A stretch of DNA of 64,000 nt, taken from contig NZ_LN831302.1 in NCBI RefSeq assembly GCF_001488575.1, forward strand, positions 62,001 to 126,000, given 5' to 3'. Below are positions 52,305 to 62,600 of the stretch, in pieces (the stretch's first letter is position 1; each line of letters begins with the position of its first letter). A program made the translations under genes and the position numbers. A model generated the notes under the pieces. That model did no database searches. It was given only the letters and a program-made list of their open reading frames with translations, and was not told the DNA's origin. Source of the DNA: Halobacterium hubeiense (GTDB taxonomy: Archaea > Halobacteriota > Halobacteria > Halobacteriales > Halobacteriaceae).

Positions 52305-54170
52305 ATGTTCGCGTCTCTGCCGCTCGCCGCACTCGGGGACCTCCCCCCGGTGACGACCGAGATGGCAGTCGTCTTCGTGCTCGTCGCAATCACGCTGGTG
52401 TTGTTCGTGACGGAGGCACTGCCGCTGGACGTCACCGCGATTCTCGTGATGGTGACGCTGATGGTCCTGCAGGACTGGACGAACATCTCCGTCACGGAGG
52501 GGCTGTCGGGGTTCTCGAACCCGGCGACCATCACGGTGCTGGCGATGCTCATCCTGAGCAACGGCATCTCGCGGTCGGGCGTCGTCCAGATCATCGGTCG
52601 GTACATGTCCGCGTTCGCGGGCACGAACAAGCACCGCCAGCTCGCCTCCACGATTCTCGCCACGGGGCCAGCGTCGGGGTTCATCAACAACACGCCCGTC
52701 GTCGCCATCCTCGTCCCCGTCATCAGCGACCTCGCGCACAAGGGCGGGACCTCTCCCTCGAAACTACTGATGCCGCTGTCGTTCGCGTCGATGCTCGGCG
52801 GAATGTTGACGCTCATCGGGACGTCGACGAACATCCTCGCGAGCCAGACCGCCGAGCGCATCGGCACCGAGCGCGGCGTGGAGGCCCTGCACGCGTTCTC
52901 GATGTTCGAGTTCACGCACCTCGGCGCCATCGTGCTCGTGGTCGGCGCCGCCTACCTGATGACCATCGGCTACTGGCTGCTCCCCGAGCGCGTCCCCCCG
53001 GAGGAGGACTACCTCGCGGAGTACGACATGCAGGACTACCTCAGCGAGGTCGTCGTGCAGGCGTCCTCGCCGCTCGTCGGGAAGACCGTCTCGGAGGCCA
53101 TCGACGAGCAGCGCTTCGACGCGGACGTCCTCCAGCTCGTGCGCGGCGGCGAGCGGTTCATCGAGCCCATCGGGCAGAAAGTCATCAAGCCCGGGGACGT
53201 GCTCACGATTCGGACGGACCGCGAGACGCTGGGCGCTATCGCGAACGTCGACGACCTCGCGCTGACGGGCGCGCCCGAGACCGACCCCGAACTGGAGCCC
53301 AGCACCGAGGAGGCAGAGCAGACGCTCGTCGAACTGGTCATCCAGTCGGGGTCGTCGCTGGTCGGCGAGACGCTGCAGTCGTCGTCGTTCCGCGGGCGCT
53401 ACGACGCGAACGTGCTGGCGTACCGCTCCCGGGGGGAGACCGTCCGCCAGCGCATGGACGAGCTGAAGCTCCGCGTCGGCGACACGCTGCTGATTCAGGC
53501 ACCCGAGGACAGCATCGACCGGCTCTCCCAGAGCCCGGACTTCATCCTCGCGCACGAGCCCGACGAGCCCGACTACCGCACCGAGAAGATTCCGTACGCC
53601 GTCGCCACCATCGTCGGCGTCATCGGCGCGGCGACGCTGCTCCCCATCAACATCGTCGTGTCGGCGCTCGCGGGCGTCGTCGCGATGGTTGCCACCGGCG
53701 TGCTGCGGCCCGGCGAGATTTACGAGTCCGTGGACTGGAACGTCATCTTCCTGCTGGCGGGCGTGATTCCGCTCGGCATCGCCTTAGAGCAGACCGGCGG
53801 CGCGGAACTACTGGGAGCGCTGGTCGCGTCCACCGGCCAGTTCCTCCCCGCTATCGGCGTGCTGTGGGTGTTCTACATGGCGACCAGCCTCATTACGGGC
53901 GTCATCTCGAACAACGCCAGCGTCGTGTTGATGATTCCCGTCGCCGTCGAGGCCTCCCTGGAGGTCGGCGCGAACCCGTTCGCGTTCGTGCTCGCGGTGA
54001 CGTTCGCGGCCTCGACGGCGTTCATGACGCCCGTCGGCTACCAGACGAACCTCTTCGTCTACGGGCCGGGCGGCTACAAGTTCAGCGACTACGTCCGCGT
54101 CGGGATGCCGCTGCAGCTGCTGTTGTCGTTCGTCACGGTCGCCGGCATCGCGTTCTTCTGGACGCTGTGA
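52305..54170 (+). CDS. SLC13-family (DASS) permease with two internal TrkA-C domains
   Basis: 621 aa. Two membrane halves carry the SNxT-type motifs (FINNTPVVAILVP and IGTSTNILA; later ISNNASVVLMIPVAVE and TPVGYQTNLFVYGPGGY), about 11 to 12 helices. A soluble insert at about residues 225-425 has two TrkA-C/RCK_C repeats (EVVVQASSPLVGKTVSEAIDEQRFDADVLQLVRGG and ELVIQSGSSLVGETLQSSSFRGRYDANVLAYR). Members import sulfate or di-/tricarboxylates with Na+. The regulatory insert suggests ligand control. Confidence 0.93.
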   Translation: MFASLPLAALGDLPPVTTEMAVVFVLVAITLVLFVTEALPLDVTAILVMVTLMVLQDWTNISVTEGLSGFSNPATITVLAMLILSNGISRSGVVQIIGRYMSAFAGTNKHRQLASTILATGPASGFINNTPVVAILVPVISDLAHKGGTSPSKLLMPLSFASMLGGMLTLIGTSTNILASQTAERIGTERGVEALHAFSMFEFTHLGAIVLVVGAAYLMTIGYWLLPERVPPEEDYLAEYDMQDYLSEVVVQASSPLVGKTVSEAIDEQRFDADVLQLVRGGERFIEPIGQKVIKPGDVLTIRTDRETLGAIANVDDLALTGAPETDPELEPSTEEAEQTLVELVIQSGSSLVGETLQSSSFRGRYDANVLAYRSRGETVRQRMDELKLRVGDTLLIQAPEDSIDRLSQSPDFILAHEPDEPDYRTEKIPYAVATIVGVIGAATLLPINIVVSALAGVVAMVATGVLRPGEIYESVDWNVIFLLAGVIPLGIALEQTGGAELLGALVASTGQFLPAIGVLWVFYMATSLITGVISNNASVVLMIPVAVEASLEVGANPFAFVLAVTFAASTAFMTPVGYQTNLFVYGPGGYKFSDYVRVGMPLQLLLSFVTVAGIAFFWTL

Positions 54171-54179
54171 GCGCCCCCG

Positions 54180-55361
54180 TCAGAAGCCGAAGACGGGGAC
54201 GAAGCGGAACGTGAGGTAGGCGCCGACGGTCGCCAGCATCGGGACGACGTTCTGCATGAGGACGACCCGGGCGGTCGTCCCGGGGTCGAAGAGGTCCGAC
54301 GCGCTCGGAATGTCCTCGGGCTCCTCTTCGCCGATTTCCGGCACTTCCTCGTCGCCCTCCTCGTCGGCGGCGAGCCCACCCACGGAGACGGGAACCTCGC
54401 CCTCGCCGCGGACGGCGTCGGGCACCGACACCGGGCGCGTCGCGCGCCCCCAACCGAGGCCGACGATGGACATGGTCGCGATGACGACGAAGCTCGCGGG
54501 GATGCCGATGGCCGACAGGAAGATGACCAGCGACGCGCTCACCACCGCGACGACGATGGCCGCGGTCAGCGGGAGTTCCGTGATGTCGCTGCCCATCGTC
54601 TCCAGCGTGCGGCGCGCGATGGTGAACGCGCCGATGCCGACCGCCACACAGCCGATGATGATAGCCGGGTTCATCTCTAAGACGCCGCTGCCCACGAGCG
54701 GTGCGATGGCGTTGGCGACGTTGCTCGTCCCCGAACTGAACGCCATCAGACACCCGATGGCGATGACCGTCGTGACGCCCCACAGCTCGCGGCGGTTCGT
54801 CGTCTCTGTCGGCCGCGGCACCGGGACGACGCCCGAACGGTCGAGTTCCAGCAGGTCGCCGCCGCTGCGCTCCATCGCGATGAGCCGGTGGAGCCGCGCG
54901 TAGAAGTACCGGCCGACGACCAGCGACACCCAGAAGCCGATGACGGGCGCGACCAGCCACCAGATGGCGATTTCCCCGAACACCGCCCAGTCGAGGGCGT
55001 TCTGGGAGACGCCCAGCCCCGCGATGGCGCCGACGGCCGTCATCGACGTGGAGGCGGGCACGCCGAAGAAGTTCCCGACGAACAGCGCCAGCCCCACGAA
55101 GAACAGCACGCCGATGCTGGCCTCCAGCGTGAAGATGCCGGGGTTCGTGACGAGCTCGCGCCCGAGCGTGTCCACGACCCGGCGGCCGAGCGTCCACGCG
55201 CCGACCGCGAAGAACGCGGTCATCAGCAGCGCCGCCACGGGCTTCGAGATGGCGTCCGCGCCGACCGCCGGCCCGAACGCCGGTCCGGTCGTCGACCCGC
55301 CGACGTTGAAGCCGACGAACATCGCCACCAGAATCCCCACGAGGAGCAGGACGCTAATCAC
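54180..55361 (-). CDS. Inorganic phosphate transporter, PiT family
   Basis: 393 aa from GTG 55361 (MISVLLLVGILVAMFVG). PiT duplicated motifs are clear: VGFNVGGSTTGPAFGPAVGADAISKPVAALL and IGCLMAFSSGTSNVANAIAPLVGSGVLEM (family FANGANDVANA..P), with PASTSMTAVGAIAG and IPASFVVIATMSIVGLGWGRA. About ten helices plus an acidic cytoplasmic loop near residues 300-350. Na+ or H+ coupled phosphate uptake. It lies 37 bp downstream of the ETVE-repeat gene on the same strand, so they are likely co-transcribed. Confidence 0.93.
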   Translation of the reverse strand: MISVLLLVGILVAMFVGFNVGGSTTGPAFGPAVGADAISKPVAALLMTAFFAVGAWTLGRRVVDTLGRELVTNPGIFTLEASIGVLFFVGLALFVGNFFGVPASTSMTAVGAIAGLGVSQNALDWAVFGEIAIWWLVAPVIGFWVSLVVGRYFYARLHRLIAMERSGGDLLELDRSGVVPVPRPTETTNRRELWGVTTVIAIGCLMAFSSGTSNVANAIAPLVGSGVLEMNPAIIIGCVAVGIGAFTIARRTLETMGSDITELPLTAAIVVAVVSASLVIFLSAIGIPASFVVIATMSIVGLGWGRATRPVSVPDAVRGEGEVPVSVGGLAADEEGDEEVPEIGEEEPEDIPSASDLFDPGTTARVVLMQNVVPMLATVGAYLTFRFVPVFGF

Positions 55362-55398: not shown

Positions 55399-56325
55399 TC
55401 ATTTGGGCTCGTCCTCGTCGGGCTCGACGTCGTCTTGCGACCGCTTCTCCTCCTCGCTGTCCTCGTCTTCGCCGTCCTCGTCACCGTACCGCTCTTCGAC
55501 GGCTTCGACTTTCTCCTCGACGGACTCGTCGGTCTCGGTGTCGCCGGTCGTCTGCTCCACCGTCTTCTCGACGGTCTCCTCGACGGTCTTCTCCACCGTC
55601 TCCTCGACAGTCTCCTCGACGGTTTCGCCGACTTTCTCCTCGACCGTCTCCCCCACTGTCTCCTCGACGGTTTTCTCGACGGTCTGCTCGACGGTTTCGC
55701 CGACTTTCTCTTCGACCGTCTCGCCCACTGTCTCCTCGACAGTCTTCTCGACGGTCTGCTCGACGGTTTCGCCGACTTTCTCCTCGACCGTCTCACCGAC
55801 GGTTTCTTCGACGGTCTGCTCGACGGTTTCGCCGACTTTCTCCTCGACCGTCTCACCGACGGTTTCTTCGACGGTCTGCTCGACGGTTTCGCCGACTTTC
55901 TCCTCGACCGTCTCACCGACGGTTTCTTCGACGGTCTGCTCGACGGTTTCGCCGACTTTCTCTTCGACCGTCTCGCCGACCGTCTCCTCGACGCTGGCCT
56001 CCACGGTCTTGTCGACGGTTTCGCCGACGGACTTCTCGACGGTCTCTTCGACGGTTTCCTCGACAGTTTCGCCAACCTTCTCCTCGACCGTCTCGTCGAC
56101 GGTCTCGCTGACGGTCTCCTCGACGGTGTCGGTGACCGCTTCGGTCATCCAGTCGGGGTCGAAGCGCGCCATCTTCCACGCGATGTGGACGACGTACGAC
56201 GCCAGCACGCCCAGCCCGAACGCCAGTCCGGTCCGGGTGCCGACGACCGAGAACAGCGCCACCGAGACGAAGATAAGCACGCCGTACACGAGGTCGGTGA
56301 GGCTGTCAACGCGGTTCGGGTTCAT
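55399..56325 (-). CDS. Membrane-anchored ETVE tetrad-repeat protein, unknown function
   Basis: 308 aa, start ATG 56325 (MNPNRVDSLTDLVYG). Two hydrophobic segments (about residues 10-27 and 31-50) anchor the N-terminus. Residues ~58-255 are an almost unbroken run of four-residue units of the form VEET, VGET, VEEK, VEQT, with Val every fourth position and Glu, Thr and Lys between. The tail (about 265-308) is extremely acidic (EDGEDEDSEEEKRSQDD). In DNA the repeat has a perfect or near-perfect 60-bp period at 55741-55980. It is not a heptad coiled coil in the ordinary sense. Upstream of, and close to, the PiT phosphate permease gene. Confidence 0.88.
   Translation of the reverse strand: MNPNRVDSLTDLVYGVLIFVSVALFSVVGTRTGLAFGLGVLASYVVHIAWKMARFDPDWMTEAVTDTVEETVSETVDETVEEKVGETVEETVEETVEKSVGETVDKTVEASVEETVGETVEEKVGETVEQTVEETVGETVEEKVGETVEQTVEETVGETVEEKVGETVEQTVEETVGETVEEKVGETVEQTVEKTVEETVGETVEEKVGETVEQTVEKTVEETVGETVEEKVGETVEETVEETVEKTVEETVEKTVEQTTGDTETDESVEEKVEAVEERYGDEDGEDEDSEEEKRSQDDVEPDEDEPK
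55741..55980. repeat. 60-bp tandem repeat inside the ETVE-repeat gene
   Basis: Four consecutive 60-bp units (55741-55800, 55801-55860, 55861-55920, 55921-55980). Two are identical and the others differ by a few bases. Each unit encodes 20 residues (five tetrads). Looser repeats of the same type extend from about 55540 to 56130. Confidence 0.9.
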
Positions 56326-56601
56326 GCACTCACCTCCGTCTGCGCGAACGCGCCGCCCGCTGTGCAGGTCGTTTGCAAGCCACGCGACCGTGTGTAGCCC
56401 GGCGCTAACGGGCTACGGTGGACGAGAAATGTGATACTAACACGGAGGGCGCGCACGGAGAAAGGGATTCCGATGGGTGGGGTCTCCCGGCGACAGGTGT
56501 CCGCCCCGCCCGAGGCCGTTCGACGCCGAAACTCGGCTGTGGGCCCGCGGCCGCAGTCGCACACCCCAACCGATAAGTAGTCGGTGGTAACACTAGCGAA
56601 T
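56326..56601. other. 276-bp non-coding region upstream of thi4
   Basis: Divergent promoter region of the ETVE-repeat gene and thi4. It contains a 7-bp inverted repeat (TAGCCCG 56395-56401, CGGGCTA 56409-56415) and AT-rich CCGATAAGTAG at about 56570-56580. I looked for a TPP riboswitch and did not find its conserved cores. Confidence 0.5.
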
Positions 56602-57531
56602 ATGTCGTTCGACTCGTTCGCCGACGCCGACGAAGCACAGGTCACGCGCGCAATTGCCCGCCAGTGGACGGAGGAGTTCATCGACGACACCGAGACCGAC
56701 GTCATCATCGTCGGCGGCGGCCCCTCCGGGCTGATGGCCGCCAAGGAGCTCGCCGAGCGCGACGTTGACGTCACCGTCGTCGAGAAGAACAACTACCTCG
56801 GCGGTGGGTTCTGGCTCGGCGGCTTCCTGATGAACAAGCTCACCGTCCGCGCGCCCGCCGACGACGTCCTCGACGACCTCGGCGTCCCCTACGAGTACGA
56901 CGACGAGACCGAGGGGCTGGCGGTCGCGGACGGCCCGCACGCCTGCTCGTCGCTCATCAAGGCCGCCTGCGACGCCGGCGCGCGCATCCAGAACATGACC
57001 GAGTTCACCGACGTCGTCGTGCGCGACGACCACGAGGTCGCGGGCATCGTGATGAACTGGACGCCCGTCCACGCGCTCCCCCGCGAACTCACCTGCGTCG
57101 ACCCCATCGCCGTCGAGTCCGACGTGGTCGTGGACGCCACCGGCCACGACGCCGTCGTCGTCTCCAAACTCCAGGAGCGCGGCGTCGTCGAGGCCGAGGG
57201 CATCGAGCACGCCGACGAACACAACACGGGCATGGACAAGACCGCGGACGGCGAGTACGGCGCGCCCGGCCACGACTCCCCCGGCCACGACTCGATGTGG
57301 GTCGCCGACAGCGAGGACAAGGTCGTCGAACAGACCGGGAAGGTCCACGACGGCCTCGTGACCGCGGGCCTCTCCACGGCGACCGTCCACGGCCTCACGC
57401 GCATGGGCCCGACGTTCGGCGCGATGCTGCTCTCCGGGAAGGCCGCCGCCAACGCCGTCATGGACGAACTCGGCACCGACGAACCGCGCGTCGACCTCCC
57501 GTCGCGGGCCGCGCCCGCCGCCGACGACTGA
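56602..57531 (+). CDS. thi4: Thiazole synthase Thi4
   Basis: 309 aa from ATG 56602 ([15 protein letters not shown]). Makes the thiazole part of thiamin from NAD, glycine and sulfur. The FAD/NAD loop [14 protein letters not shown] and the [21 protein letters not shown] block are diagnostic, with NKLTVRAP and [24 protein letters not shown] following. The active-site position carries Cys165 (RELTCVDP), the suicide sulfur donor of the Cys-type Thi4 known from yeast and Haloferax, where methanogen enzymes have His and use sulfide. Overlaps thiDN by TGATG. Confidence 0.95.
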
Positions 57532-58901
57532 TGCGCCCCGTCGCGCTCACCGTCGCCGGGTCGGACAGCGGCGGCGGCGCGGGCGTGCAGGCCGACCTGA
57601 AGACGTTCGAGGCCTGCGGCGCGTTCGGCACGTCCGCGCTCATCGCCGTCACCGCGCAGAACACCACCGGCGTCACCCACAGCGCCGTCCTCGACCCCGA
57701 GACCGTCCGCGCACAGTACGACGCGGTCGTCTCGGATTTCGACGTCGCCGCCGCAAAGACCGGAATGCTCGGTGGCGCCGACGTGGTCGAGGAAGTTGCG
57801 GACGCAATCGCCGCAGCCGACTTCCCGGTCGTCGTCGATCCCGTCGTCGTCGCGCAGTCCGGCGACCGCCTGCTCACCGAGCGCGGCGTCGACGCCGTCC
57901 GCGACGACCTGCTCCCGGAGGCCGCGCTCGCCACGCCGAACGTCCCCGAAGCCGAACTGCTCGCGGGCGTCGAAATCGAGGACGAGGCCGACCTCCGCGC
58001 GGCCGCCGAGGCCGTCCGCGACCTCGGCCCGGACGCGGTCCTGCTGACTGGCGGCCACCTCGACGGCAACCCCGTGGACGTCTACGCCGGCGAGACGACG
58101 CGGGCGTTCTCCCGCGAGCGCGTCGACACCGACGACACCCACGGCTCCGGCTGCACGCTCTCCGCTGCCATCGCCGCTCGCCTCGCGGCCGGCGACGACC
58201 CCGAGCGAGCGGTCGAGCGCGGCGTCGACGCCACCGCCAGCGCCATCGAGTCGGACCTCTCGCTCGGTGCCGGCAGCGGTCCCGTGGACCACGCCGCAAT
58301 CGCTGACGGGCGCCGCGCCGTTCCGGACGGCTCGCGCGCGCCCGAGAGCGACGACGCGACCGACGCAATCGAAGCGGTCCGGGACGTGGCCGCCGTGCTC
58401 GAACGCGAGTGGCCGCCCGAACTCGTGCCCGAAGTCGGAACGAACGTCGCTGTCGCTCCCGCCGACGCGACCGCTCCCGAGGACGTGGTCGCCGTCGATG
58501 GGCGCTTGCACGCGACGAAGCGCGGCGTCCGCGCCGTGGGCGGCGTCGCGCCGGGCGCGTCCAGTCACGTCGCGCGCTTCCTGCTGGGGGTCCGCGAACG
58601 CGACCCGCGGGTTTCGGCGGCCGGGAACGTCCGCTGGAGCCGGGAGCGCGAGGCGGCGCTGCGCGAGCGCTGGGACGTCGAGCGCATCGACCGCACCGAC
58701 GAGCCCGCGGACGCCGACGGCACGATGGACTGGTCCGCGCGCGAGGCGATGGCCGGCCGCGAGCGCGCGCCCGACGCCGTCGTCGACCGCGGCGCAGTCG
58801 GGAAGGAAGCGATGATTCGCGTGGTTGCAGCAGACGCCGACGCGCTGCTGGAGAAGCTCAGCGAGGTCGCGTCACTCGAACGTGACGCCGACGTCGTGTA
58901 G
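57531..58901 (+). CDS. thiDN: Bifunctional HMP(-P) kinase ThiD fused to thiamin-phosphate synthase ThiN
   Basis: 456 aa from ATG 57531, which overlaps the thi4 stop. The N-terminal ThiD (about 1-265) phosphorylates hydroxymethylpyrimidine twice: [42 protein letters not shown] and [16 protein letters not shown]. The C-terminal ThiN (about 280-456) joins the pyrimidine and thiazole phosphates: [42 protein letters not shown] and [13 protein letters not shown]. With thi4 it forms a two-gene thiamin operon. Its 3' end overlaps npdG by 30 bp. Confidence 0.94.
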
Positions 58902-59657: not shown

Positions 59658-62600
59658 ATGCCAACACTCGACAGGCGAACGCTGTTGAAGGCGCTCGGCA
59701 CCGGCGCGGCCGCGGCGGTTGCGGGCTCAGGGAACGTCGCGGCGGCCGGCGCGCCGTCCGGCGGCGACGACGCGTACTGGACGACCGGCGAGCAGTACGG
59801 CGTCGGTACCGTCGCCGACCACGCGGCCGACGACCCCTCCCGCGTCTGGTACACGCTCACCGAGGGTGCGCTCGCGCAGGCTCGCTTCCCGCGCGCGGAC
59901 CTGACGAACGTGCGGACGCTGGACGTGCTCGTCGCCGACCCCGACAGCGAGTACGCCGCCCGCACGTTTCAGGTGGACCGCACGGGCGACGCCCTCGAAC
60001 GCACCACGGAGCCGGTCGCGGACGACGCGCTCCTGTTCCGACAGACGGTGACCGACCCCGAGCGCGGCTGGGAGGTGGCCGTCGAGTACGCCGCCGACCC
60101 CGACGGCGACGCGGTGCTCGCGGACGTCGACTTCGACGGCGCCGGCCGCGAGTACGACGTCTACGTCGTCTGCGACCTCGCGCTGTCGAACTCCGGGCTC
60201 GGCGACGACGCGTCCGTCCGCCAGCTCCGCGAGGCAAACGGCAACGGCAAGGCGAAGGGCGGCGGCAAGGGCAACGGCAAGGCGAAAGGGCACGGCCCCG
60301 CATACGCGCTCACCGCACACGACACCGGCGAGAACGACGACCAGGCCGTGATTCGCGACGAGAACGGCGACCCGTACAACGTCGCGCTCGCGCTCGCCGC
60401 GCGCAGTGGCTTCGAGTGGGCGAGCGTCGACGTGGTCGGCGGGGACAGCCTCTCCCCGCTGCTCACGGCCGGCGACGCCTCGACGGCCTACGAGAACGCG
60501 TCCGGGAACGTTGCGCTCACCGCGCGCATCGGCTCCGGCGCCGCGCTCTCGGAGACGGTCGCGCTCGGGTTCGCCGAGAACGCCGACGAGGCCGCCGCGC
60601 TTGACGAAGCCACGGGCAGCCTCAAGCGGTCGTTCGACGCCACGCGAGCGAAGTACGCGAAGTCGTGGCGGTCGTGGCTGCGCGGCGTCGACACACCCGC
60701 GTCCGTCGCCGGCGACGACGTCCTCGAACCCCAGTATAACTTCGCCGCGATGGCGCTGAAAGCCGCCGAGTCCAAGCAGTTCCCGGGCGCAGGGCTGGCG
60801 GCGCTGTGCGTGCCGTGGGGCACCGAAGTCCAGGCGAACCAGCCCAGCGACTACGGCTACAACTACGTCTGGGGGCGGGACCTCTACCAGTCCGCGACCG
60901 CCTTCGAGGCGATGGGCGACGTCGAGTCGATGCGCGCCGCCGTCGAGTACCTCTACGGTGTCCAGCAGCGCGAGGACGGCTTCCTCCCGCAGAACACGTA
61001 CCTCGACGGCCGCACGCGCTGGGGCGGTGAACAGCTCGACGAGATTGCGTTCCCGAGCCTGCTGGCCCACCAGCTCGTCGAGCGCCACGACCACGCCCTC
61101 GCGGACCTCGACTTCGACTACGCCGACGTGAAGGCGTCCGCCGACTACGTCGCCGCCCACGGCCCCGAGACCGGCCAGGAGCGCTGGGAGGAGGAGGGCG
61201 GCCTCTCGCCGTCCACGACCGCCGCGGAAATCGCGGGTCTGGTCGGCGCCGCGCACCTCGCGGCCGACGCCGACGCCCGCGAGGACGCGCTGCTCTACCT
61301 CGCGCTCGCGGACCACTGGCAGGCCAACACCGAGGCGTGGATGGCGACCGAGACCGGCGCGGACGGCAACGAACCCACGCCGTACTACGTCCGCGTCAAC
61401 GACGACCGCGACCCCGACGACGGCGCGCCGCGGAGCCTCGCCAACGGCGGGCCGACCCTCGACGAGCGCGCGGTCGTCGACGCCGGCTTCCTCGAACTCG
61501 TCCGCCTCGGCGTGAAGCCCGCCGACGACCCGGTCGTCCAGAACTCCGTCTCCGTCGTGGACGACGCCATCCGCGTGGAGACACCCCACGGCCCCGCGTT
61601 CTACCGGTACAACGGCGACGGCTACGGCGAGCAGGACGGCTCCGGCCAGTACCGCGCGGGCGCCCCGTGGAGCCTCGACAACGCCGGGAAGGGCCGCCTG
61701 TGGCCGATTTTCACCGGCGAGCGCGCGGAGTACGAGCTGCTCGCGGGCGACGAGGACCCCGCGGCGCTGCTCCGTACGATGGCCGGGTTCGCCAACGACG
61801 GTCGGATGCTCCCCGAGCAGGTGTGGGACCGCGAGGAGCCGACCGCGTTCGGCTGGGAATTCGGCGAGGGCACCGGCTCGGCGACGCCGCTGTCGTGGAG
61901 CATGGCGCAGTTCGTCCGGCTCGCGCACTCGCTAGACGCCGGCGAACCGGTCGAGACCCCGGCGGCCGTCCGCGACCGCTACGCCGACGGCGCGGCGCCC
62001 GAGGGGCCGTCGCTGGACGTGTCGTTCCCGCTGCGGGTCGTCGGCGAGCAGCCCGCGACCGTCTCCGGCACCACGGACGCCGAGGAGGTCGTCGTGAGCG
62101 CGCTCGGCGACACCCGCAGCGTCCCCGTCGAGGACGGAGCCTTCGAGACGACCGTCGAACTGCCGGACGGCGAGACCCGCATCACCGTGGTCGCCGCGGA
62201 CGGCGGCGACGTCGCGGAGGCGGGGACGACGGTCGCCCGGAAGACTGTCGCGTACGCCGACGTCGGCGACCCCATCGCGGAGTTCGACGACGCCACCGGC
62301 GACGACCACGGCCCCGGCGACTACACGCACCCGACCGCGGACGTCTTCCAGGACGGTGTCTTCGACATCGACACCTTCGGCGTCTACGAGACCGACACGA
62401 CCGTCCAGTTCCTCGTCTCGCTGGCCGGCCCGCTCACGAACCCGTGGGGCGGCAACGGGTTCAGCCTCCAGACCGTGCAGGTGTACGTCAGCGACCCCGC
62501 CGCCGACGACGGCACCGTCGAGGCCCGCGAGGGCGTCAACGCCACCTTCGAGGCGCCCTACCAGCAGCGGGTGTTCGTCGAGGGGTGGAACCCACCGCAA

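Follow-up and report, generated by a model that had tools for sequence, protein, structure and literature searches.

A two-helix membrane protein with a valine-tetrad tail, a candidate partner of CysP-like permeases in haloarchaea

Introduction

A window of 64,000 nucleotides from Halobacterium hubeiense (positions 62,001 to 126,000 of contig NZ_LN831302.1) carries, at 55399..56325 on the minus strand, an open reading frame with an ATG start for a 308-residue protein in which valine returns at every fourth residue through a long central part. Directly downstream lies a gene annotated as an inorganic phosphate transporter. Two questions are raised by this locus: does the protein belong with the transporter, and what can a repeat with a period of exactly four fold into? 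About 70% of the haloarchaeal species sampled have the candidate partner, whose annotation goes no further than hypothetical protein, and the permeases with which it is paired are annotated as phosphate transporters yet lack the phosphate residues. As for the repeat, the family is a natural series of proteins whose hydrophobic period is exactly four, kept in register over anything from a few to about 80 units, and such a series offers a direct test of the folds possible for a period-four repeat.

Results

An earlier note on this DNA had described two N-terminal hydrophobic segments, some 200 residues with a strict valine period and an acidic tail, and this description was confirmed. Residues 1–60 (56146..56325, minus strand) form a two-helix domain, defined by alignment and predicted helices, which closes with FDPDWM. 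This is followed by 49 consecutive xxVx units in residues 61–262 (55540..56145, minus strand), read from the sequence and predicted as helix with low confidence, and by an acidic C-terminal tail of residues 263–308 (55402..55539, minus strand), which is predicted to be disordered. The net charge is −58 for residues 61–262 and −20 for residues 263–308. The PiT gene was also where the note had placed it, in line with the first gene and 37 bp downstream: at 54180..55361 (minus strand, GTG start) it encodes a PiT-family, CysP-like anion permease of 393 residues (PF01384, E 9e-41).

Convergent with the PiT gene is a CitMHS/SLC13-type transporter gene with two TrkA-C domains (52305–54170, plus strand), and a gene of this type is also close to the pair in some relatives' loci. 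On the other side a Thi4-family gene (56584–57531, plus strand) diverges from the two-helix gene; the frame that begins near 57532, behind it, is a ThiD-type kinase by the look of its sequence, and the two genes look like a thiamine biosynthesis block. Two open frames antisense to the repeat (55403–56434 and 55435–56397, plus strand) were rejected as genes, being artefacts of the repeat period.

All 49 valines of the tail stand in a single register (residues 64, 68 ... 256), and every spacing between V, I or L is four, all 48 of them without a break. When the tail was shuffled (2000 trials) the longest valine run averaged 3.4 and never exceeded 10. The tetrads are ETVE, EKVG, ETVG and others. 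The near-perfect 60-bp DNA period that had been reported stood for the middle of the array, where direct reading and TRF gave three identical copies (55780..55959, minus strand; each 20 residues or five tetrads), but not for the array as a whole, for which TRF gave 60 bp at 79% together with periods of 24, 72 and 120 bp. A scan of the 3.13-Mb genome for seven valine codons at four-codon spacing returned chiefly the window gene, with overlapping matches, and one paralogous gene (C1:2114.5–2114.7 kb), besides a few scattered places.

Several profile matches of the full protein were set aside. Those to DUF445, GvpQ, the CdrL middle region, EcsC and others in Pfam and NCBIfam fell wholly or for the most part within the repeat, scored below cut-off and were taken as low-complexity matches; DUF445 (PF04286) reached 29.7 bits against a gathering cut-off of 33.8 on the repeat only, and the gas vesicle protein GvpQ (NF041670) 27.5 bits against 100, with no single stretch passing. 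A retrotransposon Gag model did exceed its cut-off, on the repeat alone and with no stretch passing by itself, and was likewise treated as a low-complexity match. For the two-helix domain no Pfam or NCBIfam family scored above cut-off and no match was found in the PDB, and a search of the open-access literature returned no published description of the family.

In 295 genomes of the phylum searched with a profile, the family turned up only in Halobacteria, where it is present in 206 of the 292 sampled genomes and 60 of the 77 genera. In an alignment of 17 diverse members 18 of 64 columns are invariant, among them D7, D11, Y14, G15, G33, A35, G37, G39, Y44, H47, W50, K51, M52, D56, P57, W59 and M60. 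The proteins are 113–397 residues long (median 234) with no evident pattern, and their tails run from a few to more than 80 tetrads, the longest valine run having a median of 20. Tail length varies freely, but the valine register is constant: in 159 distinct proteins, which have about 3950 tetrads between them, valine occupies 98.6% of the register positions, whereas at the other three positions the commonest residue reaches only 50–70%. An RRP(R/S/K) motif is present in 43 of 104 members, and in the examples read it is preceded by heptad-spaced aliphatic residues, as in EVDAVIERLEEVNDRVDRRPR; such a heptad-like segment ahead of RRPR is found in some relatives only.

The gene's surroundings were compared at 104 loci, with more than one locus from a few genomes. 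The next gene downstream, on the same strand, is a PiT gene at 46, while a PiT gene lies divergently upstream at 25 and elsewhere nearby at three; at the remaining 30 there is none within 5 kb, so the expectation that homologues always stand beside a PiT gene did not hold. A further set, of 82 named loci that share some species with the first, gave 31 downstream, 21 divergent, five other nearby and 25 with none. In 19 of the 46 downstream pairs the genes overlap by 1–8 bases at stop and start, as expected if the partners are co-translated, and even short members of about 127 residues still adjoin a PiT gene. UspA-type universal stress genes adjoin the two-helix gene or a further PiT paralogue at 23 loci (L041, L109, L119 and others).

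The PiTs concerned are of one kind. In a tree of 126 proteins all 66 adjacent PiTs fell into a single clade (n = 95, support 0.998), within which the downstream and divergent arrangements occupy separate subclades, with a few downstream cases nested among divergent ones. Of 20 PiTs from protein-bearing genomes, taken from loci chosen for a non-adjacent PiT, 19 also belong to this clade; of 18 PiTs whose genomes lack the two-helix protein, 14 lie outside it. When presence of the clade was scored per genome as a best tblastn E below 1e-140, 197 of the 292 genomes had both protein and clade, nine the protein only, 13 the clade only and 73 neither (Fisher p 1e-44). Joint loss of adjacent genes inflates this figure, and related genomes are not independent samples. 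Inside those genera where presence is mixed the association remains strong (chi2 31). In some of the nine protein-only genomes the PiT gene appears as two split matches, which weakens its E-value; conversely, 13 of the 86 genomes without the protein still carry a PiT of the clade. Joint loss of an operon accounts for part of this co-occurrence but not for genomes that keep both genes unlinked, and the majority of genomes with non-adjacent genes do keep that clade's PiT elsewhere.

The genome holds a second pair (L247, G000:C1:2112517–2118695). Its second closest PiT, 65% identical to the window PiT, has directly behind it a two-helix protein of 155–156 residues, encoded near G000:C1:2114.5–2114.9 kb. 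This paralogue has the same build, a pair of hydrophobic helices before a tail in which every fourth residue is valine, with different tetrads (EEEV, DERV). Its N-terminal domain was related to that of the first family by hhalign (probability 94%, E 1.5e-7), and the first-family profile (A1) also matches it weakly (E 2e-5). Relatives of the paralogue occur in up to 23 genera, a count that includes weak matches that are first-family members. A PiT gene is the direct neighbour at 16 of 21 paralogue loci (14 upstream on the same strand, two divergent), and these PiTs are 60–64% identical to the window PiT in some cases and 40–44% in others. The presence of the paralogue beside the second and more distant PiTs shows that tetrad-tailed two-helix proteins have accompanied PiT-type carriers as these diversified in haloarchaea. 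Five paralogue loci (L297, L298, L300, L301 and L302) have long regular tetrad tails and no PiT within about 3 kb.

The constancy of valine against variable neighbours, together with its persistence in the diverged paralogue, argues that the valine spacing is under selection and not merely the outcome of DNA slippage.

The earlier note had taken the permease for a phosphate transporter. It is a member of the PHO4 family (PF01384) and matches TmPiT (6l85, E 3e-16), but when it is aligned to this Thermotoga phosphate carrier the two signatures read GGST and GTSN where the carrier has GAND twice: the first signature aspartate is replaced by Thr and the second by Asn. Asp is absent from both columns in all 126 haloarchaeal sequences of the PiT tree. 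The aspartates of the GANDVANA signature are critical to phosphate transport in human PiT2 (PMC3126765), and in the sulfate permease CysP they are replaced by Gly and Asn (PMC5840216). The window permease resembles CysP in having N for D at the second signature and in a score of 167 bits with the CysP model NF053884, under the curated cut-off of 400; it differs in the first signature, where B. subtilis CysP has Gly (PMC5840216) and the window permease Thr. NF053884 is the only NCBIfam model matched by any of the genome's six PHO4 proteins, so that a best match by itself proves no CysP identity; the likeness rests instead on the signature residues and on the score gap to three others of these six, which reach 40–57 bits. 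As both signature aspartates are absent and the nearest score is to CysP, phosphate is an unlikely substrate; a better guess would be sulfate or some other divalent oxyanion. The six PHO4-family genes lie at G000:C1:116183, 532388, 2115017, 2137033 and 2341872 and at G000:C3:81534; their readable first signatures are GGST or GGSS in three, GAGSSGS and GANSNSA, none of them the classical GAND.

AlphaFold2 predicted helices at residues 3–28, 30–54, 57–152 and 163–260, with a disordered acidic end. The repeat is thus predicted to be helical but with pLDDT of 40–65 for the most part, compared with about 73–84 for the membrane part. For a short member of 127 residues the prediction shows the two-helix hairpin again, together with a helix at 57–94. 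A Foldseek search with the predicted model gave no PDB fold match. Lys and Arg number on average 2.3 after helix 2 and 0.2 in the loop between the helices; by the positive-inside rule this cluster behind helix 2 puts the tail probably in the cytoplasm, which argues against an external stalk.

The observation that a period of four is unlike a heptad coiled coil was borne out. The periodicity accessible to coiled coils has an upper limit of about 3.9 residues per turn and excludes 4.0 (PMC4786415). A heptad or hendecad coiled coil, with core spacings of 3-4 or 3-4-4 and 3.5–3.8 residues per turn, was rejected for the window tail, in which all 48 spacings are four. The right-handed coiled coils (hendecad 11/3, pentadecad 15/4, YadA 19/5; PMC4786415) are similar in being long helices whose hydrophobic spacing is often four, but the pure four-spacing of the valine tail, equal to 4.0 residues per turn, lies beyond their range (PMC4786415). 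A hydrophobic period of exactly 4.0 being outside the coiled-coil range, a single regular coiled coil is excluded for the tail. It might instead be a lone helix, a series of helical stretches interrupted at Gly, a chain that is disordered when salt is low, or an undescribed assembly.

Discussion

A partnership of the two-helix protein with a PiT-family transporter is well supported by comparative sequence evidence: adjacency at 71 of 104 loci, co-occurrence with one PiT clade, overlapping gene pairs and the second pair of paralogue and PiT. The partnership suggested by the earlier note therefore stands on linkage, clade and paralogue, although adjacency is not universal. The same gene linkage and co-occurrence are those looked for in an accessory subunit of a PiT/CysP-like permease, and the preferred reading, to which a probability of roughly 0.6 is given, is that the protein serves a haloarchaeal CysP-like permease of the PiT superfamily as an accessory membrane subunit, with a cytoplasmic arm that clusters or modulates the permease. 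The two-helix hairpin would dock on the permease within the membrane through its FDPxWMT edge, and the valine-tetrad tail, of variable length, would form a long arm, for the most part helical, on the cytoplasmic side. The arm may self-associate, in some members via an adjoining true heptad segment, and once self-associated it could cluster the permease or modulate its activity. A bolder version, in which the valine repeat takes up an undescribed structure, either a helix assembly whose 4.0 residues per turn exceed known coiled-coil periodicities or an arm that depends on salt, and provides haloarchaea at large with a cytoplasmic arm of adjustable length that clusters or gates a family of anion permeases, is considered unlikely.

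Contact between the two proteins is not the only way to read their association. They might serve one process, such as the homeostasis of anions or ions, with no contact between them; the two-helix protein would then be a membrane scaffold or a stress protein in its own right, only co-regulated with the permease. The 30 loci unlinked to a PiT, the divergent pairs, which have only a promoter region in common, and the recurrence of UspA stress genes at 23 loci would fit such an arrangement. It explains less readily why the protein co-occurs with one particular PiT clade even when unlinked, why gene pairs overlap and why a second paralogue has a second PiT, and is judged rather doubtful. A different objection concerns the tail, which could be a low-complexity by-product of 12- or 60-bp slippage with no selected structure, so that the two-helix domain alone matters. 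Three perfect 60-bp copies, protein lengths that range over 113–397 residues without evident pattern and short-tailed members of about 127 residues that still adjoin PiT all speak for this, but slippage would hardly hold valine at 98.6% of the register while its neighbours change, or keep the register in a diverged paralogue with EEEV and DERV tetrads, and this explanation is considered unlikely. That the protein serves a phosphate transporter as an outside stalk or as a phosphate sensor, a reading favoured by the annotation of the neighbour, is very improbable given the predicted cytoplasmic tail, a neighbour that lacks both phosphate-critical aspartates, and searches of Pfam and NCBIfam that found no binding or signalling domain in the two-helix protein; the suggestion of a sensor was accordingly dropped.

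In many prokaryotes the gene partner of PiT carriers is a PhoU-like Pit accessory protein (PF01865, DUF47). This is a soluble helical domain without membrane helices, unlike the two-helix protein, in which no PF01865 match was found; the single PF01865 gene of the genome, at G000:C1:1430141, is distant from any PiT gene. A precedent for small proteins acting on PiT carriers is MgtS, a small membrane protein that acts on E. coli PitA (review PMC10710835). Like the accessory subunit proposed here, it is thought to modulate a PiT-family carrier (PMC10710835), but it has 31 residues and no tail, its target is a classical phosphate carrier, and a sequence relation to the two-helix protein is not expected. 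The haloarchaeal proteins are best described as an unnamed, putative accessory-protein family with a structurally unexplained repeat. The pair is also carried on large Halobaculum plasmids (L323, L324), with nirK and a gene for a dolichyl-phosphate hexose transferase nearby, and its annotation there reads only hypothetical protein and inorganic phosphate transporter.
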